Origin: a virus
Virus record (IMG/VR): IMGVR_UViG_3300005253_000004
Coordinates: 1 to 64,000 of that record
Length of the DNA stretch: 64,000 nucleotides
Reading direction: 5' to 3' (one strand)
Shown here: positions 6,548 to 51,988 of the stretch, piece after piece
How the letters are laid out: each line of letters begins with the position of its first letter
Numbering within the stretch: the first letter of the stretch is position 1
The notes under the pieces: model-generated
Told to the model about the DNA's origin: nothing
The model's database searches: none
Seen by the model: the letters and a program-made list of their open reading frames with translations, nothing else
Position numbers and translations under genes: made by a program

Positions 6548-6771
6548 TGCCGAACAACGAACAAGAGCCTAAGAAAAAGAAGAAAGGTCTCCTGTCTGAG
6601 AAGATGGGCCTAGACCGGGGCTCTGAAACGTTTGCACCTCCTAGGACCCAGCCGGGGGTGCCCCTCGGCTCGGCCGAAGAGGAGCTGAACAGGCGCAGTA
6701 GAGAAGGAGTTGTGAGCGATAAGATCCACAACAAACTCAACGATAGGAAAGGAGCCCCCCGTGCCCGCTAA
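6547..6771 (+). CDS. Small charged protein, unknown
   Basis: A 74-residue protein beginning at the ATG overlapping the previous stop (TAATG). An in-frame ATG 30 bases upstream lies inside the preceding gene and has no ribosome site. A polylysine patch near the N-terminus (PKKKKKGLL) is followed by a Pro/Gly/Glu-rich segment and a basic tail. The 3' end overlaps the next gene by 11 bases. It is probably part of the same basic-protein block; function not recognised. Confidence 0.45.
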   Translation: MPNNEQEPKKKKKGLLSEKMGLDRGSETFAPPRTQPGVPLGSAEEELNRRSREGVVSDKIHNKLNDRKGAPRAR

Positions 6772-44980: not shown

Positions 44981-45321
44981 ATGGCCCTCTCCAGAAAGAC
45001 AAGTGTTGTTTCAATTCCATAGCTATGGAAGCGATAAAGCGCTTGGAGTCCTTGGGGTGCTGAAGTGTGGCACTGCTCACACACGATATCGTAGAGGGTA
45101 CCCTTCCCTTCTTCATTCTCGTAGTTAATGTAATAATGAGCCATCCTATACGTGTTGAAATTAGAACACTTATGAATGAAATAAGACTTCATGGTAGTGT
45201 TACTCCAAGAAGTTGGTATCCCATAAAGGCCCCAGCTTCCATCAACATAGAGTTCAAATTGCTTTATATTGCCTATATCTGACATCGTTTGGAAGAGGTT
45301 GAAACTGGTAGGTTTCCTCAT
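44977..45321 (-). CDS. Small zinc-site protein of the HC/CxxC-P paralogue family
   Basis: A 114-residue protein. It carries the pattern seen in the small proteins at 54-64 kb: a His-x-Cys (SYFIHKCSN), then DIVCEQCHTSAPQGLQALYR, that is a Cx2C five residues before a Pro followed by an apolar helix. It is the most distant member in location, sitting directly after the recombinase gene with ATGA overlap. The motif suggests one zinc bound by His/Cys and three cysteines. Function unknown. Confidence 0.55.
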   Translation of the reverse strand: MRKPTSFNLFQTMSDIGNIKQFELYVDGSWGLYGIPTSWSNTTMKSYFIHKCSNFNTYRMAHYYINYENEEGKGTLYDIVCEQCHTSAPQGLQALYRFHSYGIETTLVFLERAI

Positions 45322-46376
45322 TCAAGCCCCCGACCCCACCGAGTCATGCACCCATCCTCGATGCACCAATCGATCCACTCTGTATACGCCTTGTCGATCC
45401 CGCCCCGACTGAACACTACATCAGGCCAAGCAACCCTGGCGAACTCCTCATCGTATAGCTTGTAAGCCTGAGAGCCTTTCTTATGCTCCACCCATCCGGA
45501 CTTGATCGCGGCACGGAGTAGACTCTCAGTCGTGTCGAAGCCCACCGTGTTGAGCAGCGGGGTGTCCTGCACCTCAGGATAGTCTAATTGTGATCCTTTC
45601 AGCTTTTCTATTTTAAGGCTGATCTTCTGACCGAGCCGTTTGATCTTGTCCTTGTCCGTGATCCACCCTGCATGCTTCATCGAACAACGTACAGTAGCGG
45701 CAAGCTTGATGGAGTGCCCCCCAGAGGAGTCACTCTGCTTGGCGTACTTATTGGCTGTGATGTTGGCTGTCGCATGATTGATCATGAACAAGTTAATGTT
45801 GAGTCCAGCGATGTCAGGCTGGATACGACGGATACCACCACGGATAGTCTTGGCATCTTGTGCGATCTTCTCAATCTCGCCGATGGTCTTAGCCTTCATG
45901 CCTTCAGTAGCAGCGCCAGTAACAGAGTCAACCACAATGACCAGCGGCTTGCCATCGTTGTCTTCTTCTCTTGCCTCTAGGATGTACTGGATCTGTCGGA
46001 ACATGGCGTCTACTGAGTCGGGATCACCAATACCTAAATGATAGTCAGGGTCTACACCGCAGTCCATCGCTCGTAGTTCATCCCACGACTTCTCTGTATC
46101 AAGGAACCACGCGCTACCCCCCATACGCTGCGCTTCAGCGATGGCATGATAACCTAGTGTTGTCTTACCACTGTGCTCAAATCCGAATAATTCAACACAC
46201 CGGCCTGCAGGCCAGCCCGGTTTGCCCATGTTAAAATCTAATTCAGGCAAGCCAGTACGAATACTCCAGGGGATGTTACTCTTGATGTTGATGTCGCCCG
46301 GTTTGAACACGGCTGTGTTGGAATCTTTCTTTGTCTTCTTAGACACCGCTTTGAACATGTTGTCGAAGCTACCCAT
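45318..46376 (-). CDS. RecA/UvsX-type recombinase
   Basis: A 352-residue protein from ATG 46376 (MGSFDNMFKAV) with GGGAGATTAT upstream. The RecA core shows Walker A FGFEHSGKTTLGY (near residue 60), AWFLDTEKSWDE, Walker B PLVIVVDSVTGAAT and the L2-like section LNINLFMINHATANIT with Gly-rich SSGGHSIKLAA. It lacks the long C-terminal domain of bacterial RecA. It catalyses strand exchange together with the SSB encoded directly upstream. A GC-rich hairpin with TTTT lies between the two genes. Confidence 0.9.
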   Translation of the reverse strand: MGSFDNMFKAVSKKTKKDSNTAVFKPGDINIKSNIPWSIRTGLPELDFNMGKPGWPAGRCVELFGFEHSGKTTLGYHAIAEAQRMGGSAWFLDTEKSWDELRAMDCGVDPDYHLGIGDPDSVDAMFRQIQYILEAREEDNDGKPLVIVVDSVTGAATEGMKAKTIGEIEKIAQDAKTIRGGIRRIQPDIAGLNINLFMINHATANITANKYAKQSDSSGGHSIKLAATVRCSMKHAGWITDKDKIKRLGQKISLKIEKLKGSQLDYPEVQDTPLLNTVGFDTTESLLRAAIKSGWVEHKKGSQAYKLYDEEFARVAWPDVVFSRGGIDKAYTEWIDWCIEDGCMTRWGRGLE

Positions 46377-46390
46377 ATAATCTCCCAGCG

Positions 46391-46434
46391 GAAAAGCGGG
46401 GGTGGCCTCCGATTTCAGAGGCCCCACCCCCGCT
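46391..46434 (-). terminator. Hairpin with T-tract between SSB and recombinase genes
   Basis: On the minus strand AGCGGGGGT (46434-46426) pairs with ACCCCCGCT (46403-46395) and GAGGCC pairs with GGCCTC, with a two-base bulge and an eight-base loop, followed by TTTT (46395-46392). This has the form of an intrinsic terminator. It ends 15 bases before the recombinase start, so it likely lets only part of transcription pass and keeps SSB in excess. Confidence 0.75.
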
Positions 46435-46439
46435 AGACC

Positions 46440-47174
46440 CTATTCTACCACAGCTTCCTGGGTAGCATTGTCCGACTTCGCGTACACATCCGCCAGCTCA
46501 TCATAAGAGAGCGGAGGGTATATCTCAGTCAGATCAGTGGGTTCACCGAAGTCCACGCCCTTCGCCGCGACCTGATCCACGATGTTGGAACGTGTAGGCA
46601 CGCCCATGACCGAGTACTCAGTATCGAACCGACCCTTGCCGGTGCGTGTGACCCGCAGCTCGACACCGTTGGTGATATTGGAGATGTCCCCCCAATCACC
46701 AGCCGGATCGTTGTCGAACTCCATGAACTGCTTGAACACCATCGACCCTGACTTGACAACGAAGATACCGTCAGCTAGAGTCTTGCCGTCCGGGCTACTG
46801 TATACACAGGCGTTGTACAAGTAGGCTTGTTTCGCGTACAGTTTCTTAGCCTTCTTGATGTTTATATCTCCCTTCGCCTCGTACAGTTCCTTACCTACCT
46901 CACAGATAGGACACTCGCTGTCGTCAATCGAAGTAGGACAAGTGACCGTCCCGTACTTCCCATCAGTCCTGAGCCCGTGCTCTTTGTACGCACGGAACCA
47001 CGACTTGGCTCCCTTGACCGGAGGGAGGATACGAAGATGGGTCATCCCCGCCTTCAGGAAGAGGGTCTTCCCATCGCCTCCATCTCTGATCTTCTTGGAC
47101 TCTTCATATGCCTCACGCTGAAAGTCCGGGTCCACCTCACCAAAGCCTGCGGGCAGGCCATTCTCATCTACCAT
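46440..47174 (-). CDS. Single-stranded DNA-binding protein, gp32-like
   Basis: A 244-residue protein with AAGGAGGAAGAT before its ATG. The DNA-binding core has HLRILPPVKGAKSWFRAYKE, the zinc segment TCPTSIDDSECPICEVG, then AYLYNACVY, as in T4 gp32-type proteins. The C-terminal tail is acidic (YDELADVYAKSDNATQEAVVE is its last part), the usual site for binding replication partners. It is the second gene after the promoter at 47421-47449 and precedes the recombinase, with a terminator-like hairpin between. Confidence 0.85.
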   Translation of the reverse strand: MVDENGLPAGFGEVDPDFQREAYEESKKIRDGGDGKTLFLKAGMTHLRILPPVKGAKSWFRAYKEHGLRTDGKYGTVTCPTSIDDSECPICEVGKELYEAKGDINIKKAKKLYAKQAYLYNACVYSSPDGKTLADGIFVVKSGSMVFKQFMEFDNDPAGDWGDISNITNGVELRVTRTGKGRFDTEYSVMGVPTRSNIVDQVAAKGVDFGEPTDLTEIYPPLSYDELADVYAKSDNATQEAVVE

Positions 47175-47420: not shown

Positions 47421-47449
47421 ATTATAGCTTTTCTTTCAAACTTTTGCAA
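47421..47449 (-). promoter_or_regulatory. Minus-strand sigma70-type promoter (copy B)
   Basis: Read on the minus strand: TTGCAA (47444-47449), spacer AAGTTTGAAAGAAAAGC (17 bases), TATAAT (47421-47426). The -35 box begins one base after the stop of the gene at 47451. It should give a separate transcript for SSB, recombinase and the SbcCD genes, with a leader of about 45 bases before 47370. Confidence 0.85.
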
Positions 47450-47450
47450 C

Positions 47451-48161
47451 CTACTCCAATGGGCTATTTAGGACCCGAATCTCCTCCTTCTGCTTGTAGC
47501 ATAGGGCTATAGCCAGGGATGCCATCTCTCGCAGGGCCCTGTAGAAGCCATCAACCATGGTGTATTGAGCCTGTGCCTTGTATGAGGCGTGGCGGGCCTC
47601 AGTCACCTCATCCTGTATAGAGATATGCTCTCGGATGCCAGCCTCCGTGATCTTCAGCTTGTTCTGAGCAGCTTCGACCCTAAGTGCCTGTGCCACCTCA
47701 GCTTCTAGCACCTCCACATCGTTCTTCTTACGAGAGGTGTAGGCATGGCACTCGGCGGCTACTTCAGCGTAACGTGCAATACGCTTAGGTAACGCGCACA
47801 TGTCCTTGTTAAGGGTTTCATCGCTGAGAGCTAGGTCGCTGTCGATGTCTAGCTCCACTGCATTAGCGACCCACTGCCCGTCTTCTAAGTATTCTACTGT
47901 TACTTCAACCATTGAATTCTCCTTCAGTTGTGGATCAGAGGGTATAAAGACAACACAAGAATTGGGTAGTCTATCGTCCACTGTAATAGGAATCCCTTCA
48001 AAGGTACAGTCTGAGTTAATACCACCTACAGTTACCCCTATTGTTTCTTCGATCTCTTTACCAAGAGTCTCAGACACTACAATCTGGCTGAACTCCTGTT
48101 TTGGGTGGACTCGACACCACACCACTTGTTTTACATTACGAATCTTATCTTCCCAATTCAT
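47451..48161 (-). CDS. Replication-region protein, unknown (recombination mediator possible)
   Basis: A 236-residue protein with AGGAGAAGTAA before its ATG. The N-terminal half (about residues 1-110) is beta-rich (VVWCRVHPKQEFSQIVVSE, VEVTVEYLEDGQWVANAVEL). The C-terminal half is a long helical region (ADVEVLEAEV-like heptads, EARHASYKAQAQYTMVDGFY, ALREMASLAIALCYKQK) resembling the helical tail of small recombination mediators. It lies between DNA polymerase and SSB. A UvsY-like role is only a suggestion; no defined motif was found. Confidence 0.5.
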   Translation of the reverse strand: MNWEDKIRNVKQVVWCRVHPKQEFSQIVVSETLGKEIEETIGVTVGGINSDCTFEGIPITVDDRLPNSCVVFIPSDPQLKENSMVEVTVEYLEDGQWVANAVELDIDSDLALSDETLNKDMCALPKRIARYAEVAAECHAYTSRKKNDVEVLEAEVAQALRVEAAQNKLKITEAGIREHISIQDEVTEARHASYKAQAQYTMVDGFYRALREMASLAIALCYKQKEEIRVLNSPLE

Positions 48162-48171
48162 TTACTTCTCC

Positions 48172-48285
48172 TCATTTAGCGTTTAGCTCGGCCTCAGACC
48201 AGCTTTCCCCAACACCTACTTTCATGGTAAACCGCCAGTTGTTTAGCTGGGGTACGGGGCGGCTCGCTATCTCGCGTAACTTATC
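48172..48285 (-). pseudogene. Displaced second copy of the DNA polymerase 3' end
   Basis: The minus strand reads DKLREIASRPVPQLNNWRFT then MKVGVGESWSEAELNAK and stop, matching the last 37 residues of the DNA polymerase (48510-48623), with five differences. It has no start codon in frame; a stop lies just upstream. The copy begins exactly at GATAAG, and ten bases separate it from the small gene at 48296-48520 that lies between the two copies. It is either the original polymerase end displaced by an insertion that brought its own copy, or a partial duplication. Confidence 0.85.
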
Positions 48286-48295
48286 TTACCATGCC

Positions 48296-48520
48296 TTATC
48301 CGTAGCAGGGGTAGCACCTACTCCCCCCTGTCTCCTGTCCACAGTGGTAGCAGGTAGGAACACGATTCTCGTATTCTTTATGGATCTCTTCCCATCTATG
48401 CTTCAGTAAATCTTGCTGCCATTGTGGTAGTTTGTGGAACTCATTACATGCTCTCTCCACACCAGCCCAGAAGTCCCTGCTCTTCTTCGTACTCATGTCA
48501 CGCTTCAACTTACTTCGCAT
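48296..48520 (-). CDS. Small zinc-ribbon protein between two polymerase 3' ends
   Basis: A 74-residue protein (or 66 residues from ATG 48496). Helical N-terminal part (SRDFWAGVERACNEFHKLPQ, WQQDLLKHRWEEIHKEYE) and a C-terminal zinc ribbon CYHCGQETGGSRCYPCYG. The 5' end overlaps the polymerase stop by 11 bases. It is followed after ten bases by a degenerate copy of the polymerase 3' end, so it may be cargo of a small insertion. No family is recognised and no strong ribosome site is seen. Confidence 0.5.
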   Translation of the reverse strand: MRSKLKRDMSTKKSRDFWAGVERACNEFHKLPQWQQDLLKHRWEEIHKEYENRVPTCYHCGQETGGSRCYPCYG

Positions 48521-51077
48521 TGAGTTCGGCCTCCGACCAACTCTGCCCGATACCCACCTTCATGGTGAAGCACCAGTCATTTAGCTGGGGTACAGGGCGG
48601 CTCGCTATCTCACGTAGCTTATCCTCGAACCAGCCCAGGTGTTCGTTCTTCACCTCAAACAACCCGGAGTCATGCACCGTGATGATGAGGGCCGCTTCCT
48701 CTTCCGTCATGACGCCCGCCTTGATCTGCTCCTCAAGGTATACGTTCATGGCGTTGAGGGTACGGATGGTGACACTTGCGGCCGGTGACTGGATGGTGCC
48801 GTTCACCGCCTGTCGTTCAGCGTTCTCCCTCGCCCACTTATTGCCTGAGTTGAGGGTGCTGCCCATGTGCTTAACCCTACCGAACGGAGTGATGTGGATA
48901 CCAGCGTTGGCTGAGATCTCAGACACCGTGTTGATGAAGTACGTACCCGCAGCAGGGAACCGTTCGTCCAGCGCAGCGTACCCAGCCTGTATCATCTCCT
49001 TCGTCACAGGCCATTCGTTTCCTTCCAAGTCCATCCACGTCAGCTTCAACAGTGAGCGTCCTTCCACCGCACCGTACACCCTACTGAAGTTGACGGGCTT
49101 GGCGAGGTCACGGTTGTGAGCACAGACCTCATGATCCTCAAGCCCCACGAACTGAGCAGCCGTGGCCTTATGGATGTCCTGGCCTGACCGGAAGATCTCC
49201 ATCATGTTCTCGTCACCTGACTTGATGGCAAGGACGACCAGCTCGATCATGCTGTAGTCACCATACACAAGACTGTACCCTTCTTGGGCTATGAACATGT
49301 CCCTCAGGTTGCCCAAGCCTTTCTTGATACGCTCCCGATCAAGGCGAGGGATCTGGTGAAGGAAACCACACGAAGGCCGACCATTAACAGTACCATGCAG
49401 CAGCACACTGATCCTAGCTCTACCATCCGTAGCCCCGCTCATATCCTTGGCGTTGTTCATGTAGGTGCTGATCAACTTGGTGAGCGAGCGGTACCTCATG
49501 AACTCCTCCACTATGGGGAGCTTCTTGATGAGGGGTAGTAGCTTGGACTTGTCAGTACTGTAGCCTTTGGTGGTCTTGGGGGACTCTATATCCCTACCGT
49601 ACCCAGCCTGGATGATGGCCTTGGCTACGTCATCTGACTTGTCTCCGTTGAACTCAGGCCACGTCCGTTCCTTGAGGCTGACAGACAGCGCAGCCTGCTC
49701 CTTCATGAACTCCTTGGTCAGTGTGTCGATCACATCCGTAGACAGGCAGGTGCCTCTCCACTCAGCCTTCATCATGGTGCGGATGAAGGGATGCACCTCA
49801 TCCGTGTAGAGCTTCCACTGCTCCGGTAGCGCCTTCAGCCTGGAGTAGTACCGGCAGAACAAACGGTAGGTACTCTCAGCATCCTTGGCCCCATAGGGGT
49901 GGAGGATCTTATCAGGTACGTGGTCATAGGTGTTCCGTAGCACCCTGCCGTGGCCTGTGATGTCATGGACTCCCTTGCTGTAGTTGCCTGTGTTCAGCTC
50001 TAGGTCAGCGAGGTACTCAAGGTCATGCGGCGGGTGCTCCCAGAGGATGTGATGCATCAGCAGGGTGTCGAACAGGAAGCCCTTGGTCTCTATGCCGAGG
50101 TGTTTCCTCATCACGCACATGTCGTACTTGATGTTGTGGGCAACCTTCGGGATGTTGGGATCCTCAAAGATCTCCTTCAGCATCTCAATAACCATCTCTC
50201 TACCGTGGTGATCCCAAGTAGGCTTCAGCTTCCAGTCCGTGCCGTCCGGGTCATGGTTGTATAGCGGCAGCACCGCTACGGTACGCCTTGGTTGATCGTA
50301 CCCCCAGCAGAACTGCAAGCAGATTAGAGGTTGCTCGCTCCAAGGTAGGCCTCGTGACTCAGAGTCAAAGGCAAACATGCCTTTCTCTTTTATCTCCCCA
50401 ATCATCCAGGCCAGATCATATTTATCTTCGATCAGCTTGTAGTCCACGTCCTGCTGGTCAGGGTTAACGAGGCCACCCTCAACCACAGCCTTGGCGAGGA
50501 TCAGGTCCTTGACCATCGTGCCCTGGAGGCGAGGGTCAGGGTTCATATACAGGGCGTTAGGATCCGTCGTGACCATGAGCTTGTACACCTTGTCATTGGT
50601 GTCGTCATGAGGAAAAGCTTTCTCAATGATCTTCCCATGCAGCTTATTGACCCCACCCTCACCCATAAGATTAAAGGCTCTGAGGGTAGCTGCCCCCATG
50701 AGGATCACCACGTCCGGGTCGACGGCCTTCAGCTCATCGGCAAGGTGACCAGAACAAAACTTAATTTCCTGCACCGAAGGTGGGCGTTTTGGAGGACAGC
50801 ATTTTACCAATCCTGTCACGTAGACATCGCTGAGGGCTATGGTTGCGAGGTCCAAAAGCTCACCAAGCTTCTCGACGTTCCGCCCTTTACCTATAGTAAT
50901 GGTGTCCTTATTGTCCGGAGCCTTGACAACGACCATTATCTTGGTCTTAGAAGGGGGCTCAGGCTTTGCTGACGGCACCGTGTCGCATCTTCCTCCACTA
51001 CACTGGACCCACTTAGTCAACTCGCCCAATTTACAGGCTGGAGAGCCGCCTAGGGCTTTCTTACAGCTTTCTGTCAT
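48510..51077 (-). CDS. UDG-like domain fused to family A DNA polymerase
   Basis: An 855-residue protein with AAGGAGAGATCAG before its ATG. Residues 1-195 resemble the iron-sulphur UDG family: Cys26/Cys31, VYVTGLVKCCPPKRPP (Cys93/94), IKFC (Cys108), DPDVVILMGAATLRAF. The usual GEAPG and HPS catalytic motifs are replaced by VKAPDNKD and TDPNALY. Residues about 225-400 are a 3'-5' exonuclease (AFDSES, HNIKYD, YGAKDAEST). Residues about 430-855 are the polymerase: motif A DYSMIEL, motif B RDLAKPVNFSRVYG (Phe at the Pol I 762 position), motif C VHDS instead of HDE. It is the replicative polymerase; whether the UDG part cuts, binds uracil or only docks is open. Confidence 0.9.
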   Translation of the reverse strand: MTESCKKALGGSPACKLGELTKWVQCSGGRCDTVPSAKPEPPSKTKIMVVVKAPDNKDTITIGKGRNVEKLGELLDLATIALSDVYVTGLVKCCPPKRPPSVQEIKFCSGHLADELKAVDPDVVILMGAATLRAFNLMGEGGVNKLHGKIIEKAFPHDDTNDKVYKLMVTTDPNALYMNPDPRLQGTMVKDLILAKAVVEGGLVNPDQQDVDYKLIEDKYDLAWMIGEIKEKGMFAFDSESRGLPWSEQPLICLQFCWGYDQPRRTVAVLPLYNHDPDGTDWKLKPTWDHHGREMVIEMLKEIFEDPNIPKVAHNIKYDMCVMRKHLGIETKGFLFDTLLMHHILWEHPPHDLEYLADLELNTGNYSKGVHDITGHGRVLRNTYDHVPDKILHPYGAKDAESTYRLFCRYYSRLKALPEQWKLYTDEVHPFIRTMMKAEWRGTCLSTDVIDTLTKEFMKEQAALSVSLKERTWPEFNGDKSDDVAKAIIQAGYGRDIESPKTTKGYSTDKSKLLPLIKKLPIVEEFMRYRSLTKLISTYMNNAKDMSGATDGRARISVLLHGTVNGRPSCGFLHQIPRLDRERIKKGLGNLRDMFIAQEGYSLVYGDYSMIELVVLAIKSGDENMMEIFRSGQDIHKATAAQFVGLEDHEVCAHNRDLAKPVNFSRVYGAVEGRSLLKLTWMDLEGNEWPVTKEMIQAGYAALDERFPAAGTYFINTVSEISANAGIHITPFGRVKHMGSTLNSGNKWARENAERQAVNGTIQSPAASVTIRTLNAMNVYLEEQIKAGVMTEEEAALIITVHDSGLFEVKNEHLGWFEDKLREIASRPVPQLNDWCFTMKVGIGQSWSEAELNAK

Positions 51078-51570
51078 CTGATCTCTCCTTCGTTCTTACC
51101 CTGTGGCAGTTGGAGCAGATTAGGTCACACTTAGCCACCTCTTCTTCTACCTCTTTAATAGTCTCCGGAGTAGCCCGCAGTGAGCCTTTTGTACCCACTC
51201 CGAACTTCTTAGTCTCTTCAGGACGGTGGTCAAAATCCATAGCACAGAAAGGAAGCACCCCACCGCAGTCAGCACAAGGTAAACCCTCGTACTTGTTGAT
51301 TAAATAACCTTGTATGTTCCTACGTTCTTCTCTATTCTTATCATGGTGACTTACTCTGTACTGTTTGGTACAAACGTGGCAGGCGCGTCGCTTCCACTTT
51401 CCCCTAATATCCTCAAAAGAATCAAGAGGTTTCTCAGTTTTGCACACCCTACAGAGTCGTACCCCTTCATTCTGAGCTTCCTCACGGCAGGAGTCAGAGC
51501 AGTATTTCTGCTTACTGTGACTGGTCTTGTACACTACGCAGCACTGATGGCAGCGTTTTTCTAGCTTCAC
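51061..51570 (-). CDS. HNH endonuclease upstream of the polymerase
   Basis: A 169-residue protein. I chose the GTG at 51570 because AAGGAGAGG lies upstream and it overlaps the previous stop as GTGA; a longer frame would overlap the previous gene by 94 bases. It contains several cysteine pairs (RCHQCCVVY, YCSDSCRE, LCRVCKTEKPLDSFED, ACHVCTKQYR) and an HNH core CADCGGVLPFCAMDFDHRPE and CDLICSNCHRVRT. Free-standing HNH genes next to polymerase genes are usual homing elements. Its end overlaps the polymerase start by 17 bases. Confidence 0.7.
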   Translation of the reverse strand: MKLEKRCHQCCVVYKTSHSKQKYCSDSCREEAQNEGVRLCRVCKTEKPLDSFEDIRGKWKRRACHVCTKQYRVSHHDKNREERRNIQGYLINKYEGLPCADCGGVLPFCAMDFDHRPEETKKFGVGTKGSLRATPETIKEVEEEVAKCDLICSNCHRVRTKERSDDRKL

Positions 51571-51818
51571 TGCCCTCTCCTTCTCAGTTCTAGCCAAATA
51601 TGGAGCCTCAGGAAGGGCTTCAGCAGCCACCTCACCCACTTCAGCTTCGTTATAGTCCACGCTGTGCTGGCCTTAGAGGCCCGCTCATAAGTCCCTACTA
51701 CGGTCCCTGGTGTGAGCTTCCCACAATGAGGGCAACACCCGTGGCTACCCATCATCTGGTGGTACGACAGTTTCTTGTCGCACTCCATACAGAAGTATTC
51801 TTTCTTCCACCTACTCAT
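51567..51818 (-). CDS. Small zinc-ribbon protein with amphipathic tail
   Basis: An 83-residue protein from ATG 51818 (MSRWKKEYFCMECDKKL) with GGAGAGAGGCG upstream. It has a zinc ribbon of CMEC and CCPHCG, then a Trp/Leu/Arg-rich helix (TKLKWVRWLLKPFLRLHIWL) that could lie on a membrane. The start overlaps the stop of the Cys-rich gene at 51815. No family is recognised. Confidence 0.6.
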   Translation of the reverse strand: MSRWKKEYFCMECDKKLSYHQMMGSHGCCPHCGKLTPGTVVGTYERASKASTAWTITKLKWVRWLLKPFLRLHIWLELRRRGQ

Positions 51819-51988
51819 CCGCCTCTCTCCTCTGGGCAGCACCCACACCCACACTGGCATGCCTCATGGTCAGGGATTATCAGGCCACAAGTACACATAG
51901 GATCACGCTTACACTGGAGCCATTCGACACAGCGGCAGAAGTATTCCCCTGGGCTGGTGTATCTACAAGTAAGCTTAAGCTCGCTCAT
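51815..51988 (-). CDS. Eleven-cysteine, metallothionein-like small protein
   Basis: A 57-residue frame from ATG 51988, overlapping the previous stop and the next start by four bases each (ATGA). It contains 11 cysteines in CxC and CxxC-like clusters (FCRCVEWLQC, MCTCG, ACQCGCGCC). The density is that of metallothionein-like metal-binding proteins or compact zinc clusters. The overlaps at both ends make a real gene likely. Function unknown; metal storage or host-protein inhibition are guesses. Confidence 0.6.
   Translation of the reverse strand: MSELKLTCRYTSPGEYFCRCVEWLQCKRDPMCTCGLIIPDHEACQCGCGCCPEERGG

Follow-up and report, generated by a model that had tools for sequence, protein, structure and literature searches.

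A second copy of the DNA polymerase gene end behind a small phage gene, probably displaced by recombination at the polymerase 3' end

The displacement of gene ends is a principle known from Rhs and T6SS loci. In Rhs C-terminal displacement, the core of the gene stays intact and a new 3' end arrives together with the gene that follows it (Jackson et al. 2009, PMC2935791). What had been the 3' end before is moved downstream, where it stays beside its old gene as a relic lacking a start, and homologous recombination in the shared core was proposed (PMC2935791). For T6SS effector-immunity loci, displacement was described as homology-facilitated illegitimate recombination, with one end homologous and the other illegitimate; downstream genes of older date and the 3' ends of effector genes persist there in an array, as at the phage polymerase locus described here (PMC5361080). 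One-sided homologous recombination with an illegitimate joint, or single-crossover insertion, has been proposed for both T6SS effectors and Rhs (PMC5361080, PMC2935791). Two phage systems are also comparable. As far as they are presented in PMC4503421, the PeSL cassettes of T4-type phages (Arbiol et al. 2010; Comeau et al. 2014) share with this locus the repeated expression signals at gene borders, which are linked to the shuffling of small genes; PeSLs are, however, promoter/stem-loop signals between genes, whereas the signal found here, a ribosome-binding site with a start codon, is hidden in coding sequence. Islands of homing endonucleases near phage polymerase genes (Barth et al. 2023, PMC10448857) are alike in that an HNH gene adjoins the polymerase gene in the stretch analysed here and in the related loci L008 and L017, and unlike in that the displaced units of four loci (this one, L012, L019 and L009) contain no nuclease.

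The window, i.e., the whole stretch of 64,000 nt that was analysed, belongs to a virus record of 119,470 bp. Its minus strand carries, in this order, an HNH endonuclease gene, the DNA polymerase gene, a small gene named ZnR, a start-less polymerase end, a 236-aa open reading frame, a gp32-like single-strand DNA-binding protein (SSB) and a UvsX-like recombinase. The polymerase (48510-51077, 855 aa) belongs to family A, with Pfam matches to DNA_pol_A (3e-54), a 3'-5' exonuclease (1e-17) and an N-terminal domain of the UDG superfamily (6e-11). The latter occupies residues 44-181 (50535-50948) and is fused to the exonuclease and polymerase domains. Directly upstream, overlapping the polymerase start, lies the HNH gene (51061-51660, phrog_2255, 5e-22), which itself appears to start within the 3' end of a preceding small gene (51567-51860), so that a similar gene-end insertion may have occurred on the 5' side of the polymerase. 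A similar sequence, devoid of an open HNH frame, is present at this position in L003, and a second HNH gene with 48% identity to the first lies outside the window (G000, 107614-107895).

The downstream part of the locus belongs to a replication-recombination block, in which the SSB (46440-47174) and the UvsX/RecA-like recombinase (45318-46427) were recognized by profile matches. Comparison with relatives revealed that the 236-aa frame (47451-48161) consists of 83 N-terminal codons of a gene called WED, fused in frame to a conserved gene at the uvsY position (47451-47912); these two genes are separate in relatives. The name uvsY reflects position and general look, since a sequence search against solved structures gave no match to UvsY. 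An internal ATG of the fused frame retains an AAGGAG site (MVEVTVEY...), and both the fused and the separate uvsY-position products may be made. Just behind this gene, a promoter-like site TTGCAA-N17-TATAAT (47421-47449), kept in 15 of the 21 loci scanned, likely drives the SSB and UvsX genes. No promoter or terminator above chance was detected in the interval from polymerase to uvsY.

The polymerase 3' end, 37 codons plus stop, is present twice. A repeat search returned one long direct repeat (48165-48285 and 48503-48623, 80% identity over 121 nt) with a spacing of 338 nt, and the two tails proper, the proximal at 48510-48623 and the distal at 48172-48285, are identical at 92 of 114 nt. Their alignment score of 120 compares with a maximum of 31 in 500 shuffles. 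Most of the 22 differences (16) fall at third codon positions (binomial p = 1.8e-4), and both tails encode the same conserved polymerase end. The proximal copy terminates the polymerase gene; the distal copy keeps its frame intact up to a TGA, has an in-frame TAA ahead of it (W*DKLRE...), and shows a weaker similarity, with a small gap, over a few more codons upstream. These results bear out the sequence-only reading of this DNA as regards the duplicated end, the 338-nt unit and the roles of the two copies. Its count of five residue differences has to be lowered to four (N/D, R/C, V/I and E/Q), and the 74-aa gene that it placed between the copies is there, except that it overlaps the proximal copy by its first 11 nt. 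An identity of only 81% between the copies makes an assembly artefact unlikely. An origin of the relic from a second polymerase or from an unrelated gene was rejected: a search of the phage's own genome gave one full-length polymerase match in the 119,470-bp record, and no further copy of the tail occurs elsewhere in it.

The gene ZnR (48296-48520; CxxC...CxxC) takes its start signal from within the polymerase. Its ATG is formed by the adjacent polymerase codons AAT and GCG, at -11 relative to the end of the stop codon of the polymerase, and the Shine-Dalgarno sequence GGAGG (48530-48534) lies within the codons for S-E-A, so that the last codons of the polymerase (SWSEAELNA) spell GGAGGC...AATG. 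ZnR is probably translationally coupled to the polymerase. The distal tail has AAC at this place and no hidden ATG; the next gene uses an AGGAG Shine-Dalgarno sequence at the end of this copy (48168-48172), in the layout seen at the L003 polymerase/WED junction.

The hidden start was surveyed in 21 loci, the window and 20 related ones. In 13, the first gene behind the polymerase uses the hidden ATG, at -11 or, in L010, at -8; the next gene of the other eight has its own site or an ATGA overlap. The Shine-Dalgarno codon is GAG in 13/13 hidden-start loci versus 2/8 of the others (six of the eight have GAA and five lack the ATG), an association of about 5e-4 by hand calculation from the counts, uncorrected for relatedness. 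Asparagine is encoded by AAT in all 11 hidden-start tails that have this residue, compared to 23% of Asn codons in these polymerases overall. The polymerases returned by a scan of bacterial genomes were all distant (at most 31% identity) and seemed to be normal pol I enzymes; they served as outgroup tails. Bacterial pol I proteins mostly end in W-x-E-A-H or similar, and the extra E-L-N-A residues of the phage enzyme seem to be an addition bearing the start signal.

ZnR itself is known from five members, those of the window, L012, L019, L024 and L030, in which the motif TCxHCGQE...G.RCYxCYG is invariant. Its predicted structure is a helical hairpin with a zinc knuckle (pLDDT 80). Profile searches gave no credible family match, no PDB fold matched at E < 3, and no member was found in named phages or away from this place behind this polymerase, where all five records have it. 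The position of the gene suggests an accessory role in the replication-recombination block.

What lies between the polymerase and the conserved uvsY-position gene varies from phage to phage. There is no gene in L005, L007, L013, L124 and L125, and the WED gene in L003, L009, L010, L014, L015, L131 and L132. ZnR is followed by WED in L030 and by a second zinc protein in L024; the latter protein is also preceded by a membrane-like gene in L016 and by a NUMOD4/HNH gene in L008 and L017, where the nuclease gene sits directly behind the polymerase with an ATGA overlap on its stop. Further gene contents occur in other loci. In L031 (around 6555-6610) and L137 (around 1019-1075), the sequence MQTKTKRDKSTEDR is joined in frame to the WED gene; it looks like the first codons, apparently some 14, of a deleted ZnR gene. 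A pattern scan of viral contigs returned no close relative of the window's own WED gene. Both the whole polymerase and the uvsY gene of the window are nearest to those of L016, which is 87% identical and has other genes at the locus.

A second polymerase tail between polymerase and uvsY was found in four of the 21 loci (each p ≤ 0.002): the window (114 nt, of which 110 aligned), L012 (45 nt), L019 (27 nt, 26 identical) and L009 (17 nt, all identical). None was detected in the other 17, which include L008 and L017. In L008, a mini-tail before the gene ZnR2 has a similar register and was rejected as not significant. For L012, L019 and L009, the ATG of the relic serves, with the register unchanged, as the start of the gene that follows, and the start-anchored match to the polymerase tail reaches 17-23 of 25 positions, compared to 8-13 for ordinary starts. 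As in Rhs loci, an intact gene with its current 3' end is followed by a start-less relic in the same orientation, and the gene attached to the relic is attached to the core gene in relatives. The latter holds for three of the four relic loci: WED, displaced in the window, stands directly behind the polymerase in L003, L131, L132 and others; ZnR, displaced in L012, does so in L024 (and comes first in L030 likewise); uvsY, displaced in L009, does so in L007 and L013. No relative carrying the third gene of L019 (g3) was found.

One metagenome yielded both L012 and L024, whose sequences are near-identical on either side of a clean difference of 201 nt. In their functional tails, 47 of 48 positions agree ahead of the final 22 nt, but only 15 within these 22, and the end of the L012 relic with the following ZnR start matches L024 at 41 of 42 sites. 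From this pattern, the last ~20 nt of the polymerase and the new small gene go together. The difference may be a gain in L012 or, equally, a loss in L024 by recombination between tail repeats, as recombination between two tails would remove the unit without a scar. No source of the L012 insert was found in viral contigs or in the 19 records searched. For the window, no relative of about 95% identity with just one tail allele was found.

The window copies show another Rhs-like feature, a near-identical core part and a divergent tip. Only 3 of 44 sites differ in front, against 19 of 70 behind, with a rate change at position 44 (p = 0.0012; site variability was taken from relatives, and the test rests on 22 differences). 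Among 231 tail pairs, this one is the most uneven, followed by L012/L024. The front 44 nt are 93% identical, unlike nearest relatives, and the back 70 nt 73%. The proximal allele is of the hidden-start type and leads into ZnR; the distal allele is of the own-site type, AACGCTAAATGAGGAGAAG, leads into WED and resembles the polymerase-WED junction of L003, AACGCTAAATAGGAGAAG. The back half of the distal copy is not especially close to that of L003 (17/70 differences); only the last ~12 nt and the flank look alike. With its intact frame, few private changes (four, three of them silent) and mostly synonymous differences, the distal copy was in a working polymerase until recently. On a simple reading, a single polymerase lineage would have supplied the front parts of the two copies, and two alleles their back parts.

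We therefore consider it likely that the locus results from serial displacement at the polymerase 3' end, in which recombination joined two terminus alleles out of register. The polymerase end would act as a docking site for small genes. Since its last codons spell a strong ribosome-binding site and a start codon, the following gene can be translated from inside the polymerase, and since the tail holds this start signal, the gene travels with the tail in front of it. An out-of-register event would have joined polymerase, tail and ZnR on the left to another tail and WED on the right, leaving a working polymerase with its present tail, then ZnR, the displaced tail relic and the WED gene. It would have been anchored in the shared tail, either as homology-facilitated illegitimate recombination or as single-crossover insertion of a gene-plus-tail unit. 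Where the ZnR stop meets the relic, small indels blur the joint, and its exact position is not readable; the identity of the front parts fits a homologous anchor. The phage can probably recombine, as a UvsX-like recombinase and an SSB are encoded nearby, and its own UvsX-type system may have helped. Breaks could be supplied by the HNH genes adjoining the polymerase in the window, L008 and L017, the displaced units themselves having no nuclease. ZnR need not be the newcomer, because L030 has the order polymerase-ZnR-WED with no relic. The sequence-only reading suggested an insertion that replaced the gene end which it cut off; such an arrival, with the former end pushed downstream, agrees with the two-part divergence, the three independent parallels in L012, L019 and L009, and the L012/L024 pair.

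The alternative named there, partial tandem duplication with later gene gain, would mean that the polymerase 3' end was doubled inside a single genome, that ZnR was then captured between the two copies and that the distal one decayed; this appears improbable. The close identity of the front parts does indicate that part of the repeat comes from the same polymerase lineage, but the divergent back parts and the changepoint give front and back different histories, and the changes are mostly silent. Moreover, tail copies recur in three other loci with different genes between them, and ZnR, starting inside the tail, cannot simply have been dropped between two copies.

Homing, in which an HNH enzyme cuts in or near the polymerase gene and repair from a co-infecting phage carries over the tail and the small gene, has little probability as well. 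HNH homing genes do cluster near phage polymerase genes (PMC10448857); the window has one overlapping the polymerase start, and L008 and L017 have a NUMOD4/HNH gene directly behind it. The HNH gene of the window is, however, 2.5 kb away from the tail; no HNH match lies beside the polymerase in most loci, L012, L019 and L009 among them (some contigs being short); and the two loci with a downstream HNH gene show no significant relic tail. No free-standing homing endonuclease lies in the window insert, and one occurs behind the polymerase only in those two loci. Homing would explain the break, not the tail structure.

A dedicated mobile cassette, i.e., a gene-plus-tail unit that inserts specifically at the ends of polymerase genes and recognizes them by the tail, is very improbable, and the site-targeting element implied by the sequence-only reading is not supported: the same site and start register with different cargo in many loci would suit it, but the inserts hold no integrase, transposase or nuclease (that of the window holds only ZnR, with no recombinase family match), the relics differ in length (114, 45, 27 and 17 nt), unlike a fixed core (att) sequence at both ends, ZnR was found only at this locus, and the genome has no tail at any other place.

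Serial displacement at the polymerase end also differs from its bacterial counterparts. Rhs genes swap large and different C-terminal tips, whereas here only the last ~20-70 nt change and the protein remains the same; the tips carry no different C-terminal domains, and what changes is the following gene with its start signal, in a phage genome rather than a bacterial chromosome. Unlike in the T6SS loci, no toxin-immunity pair is evident, and the host gene is a polymerase. The polymerase locus works like a displacement and is not a member of the Rhs system. Compared with the open-licence papers considered, a displacement on a phage polymerase, reduced to a tail bearing a start signal, appears to be a new form of this known principle.

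Phages constantly gain small genes; the junctions mostly show no scar, and how the genes got there is a matter of guesswork. At the polymerase end, the joints are still readable in four related loci, and for one of these a near-identical relative without the insert is available. These joints point to a route in which a new gene settles at the end of an essential gene and brings a copy of this end along, the reason being that the next gene's start signal lies in it. A further step, on which we are doubtful, is that the tail in this phage group, by serving at once as ribosome-binding site and start codon, is a general gene socket, at which gene-plus-tail units are added, stacked and cleanly removed by tail recombination, leaving the polymerase undamaged; if true, this would be a reversible cassette system made from coding sequence alone, somewhat integron-like in outcome. 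Serial displacement would extend the Rhs-type idea to a replication gene, and it offers a rule, open to testing, on the sites at which phages take up genes and the way in which they do so.
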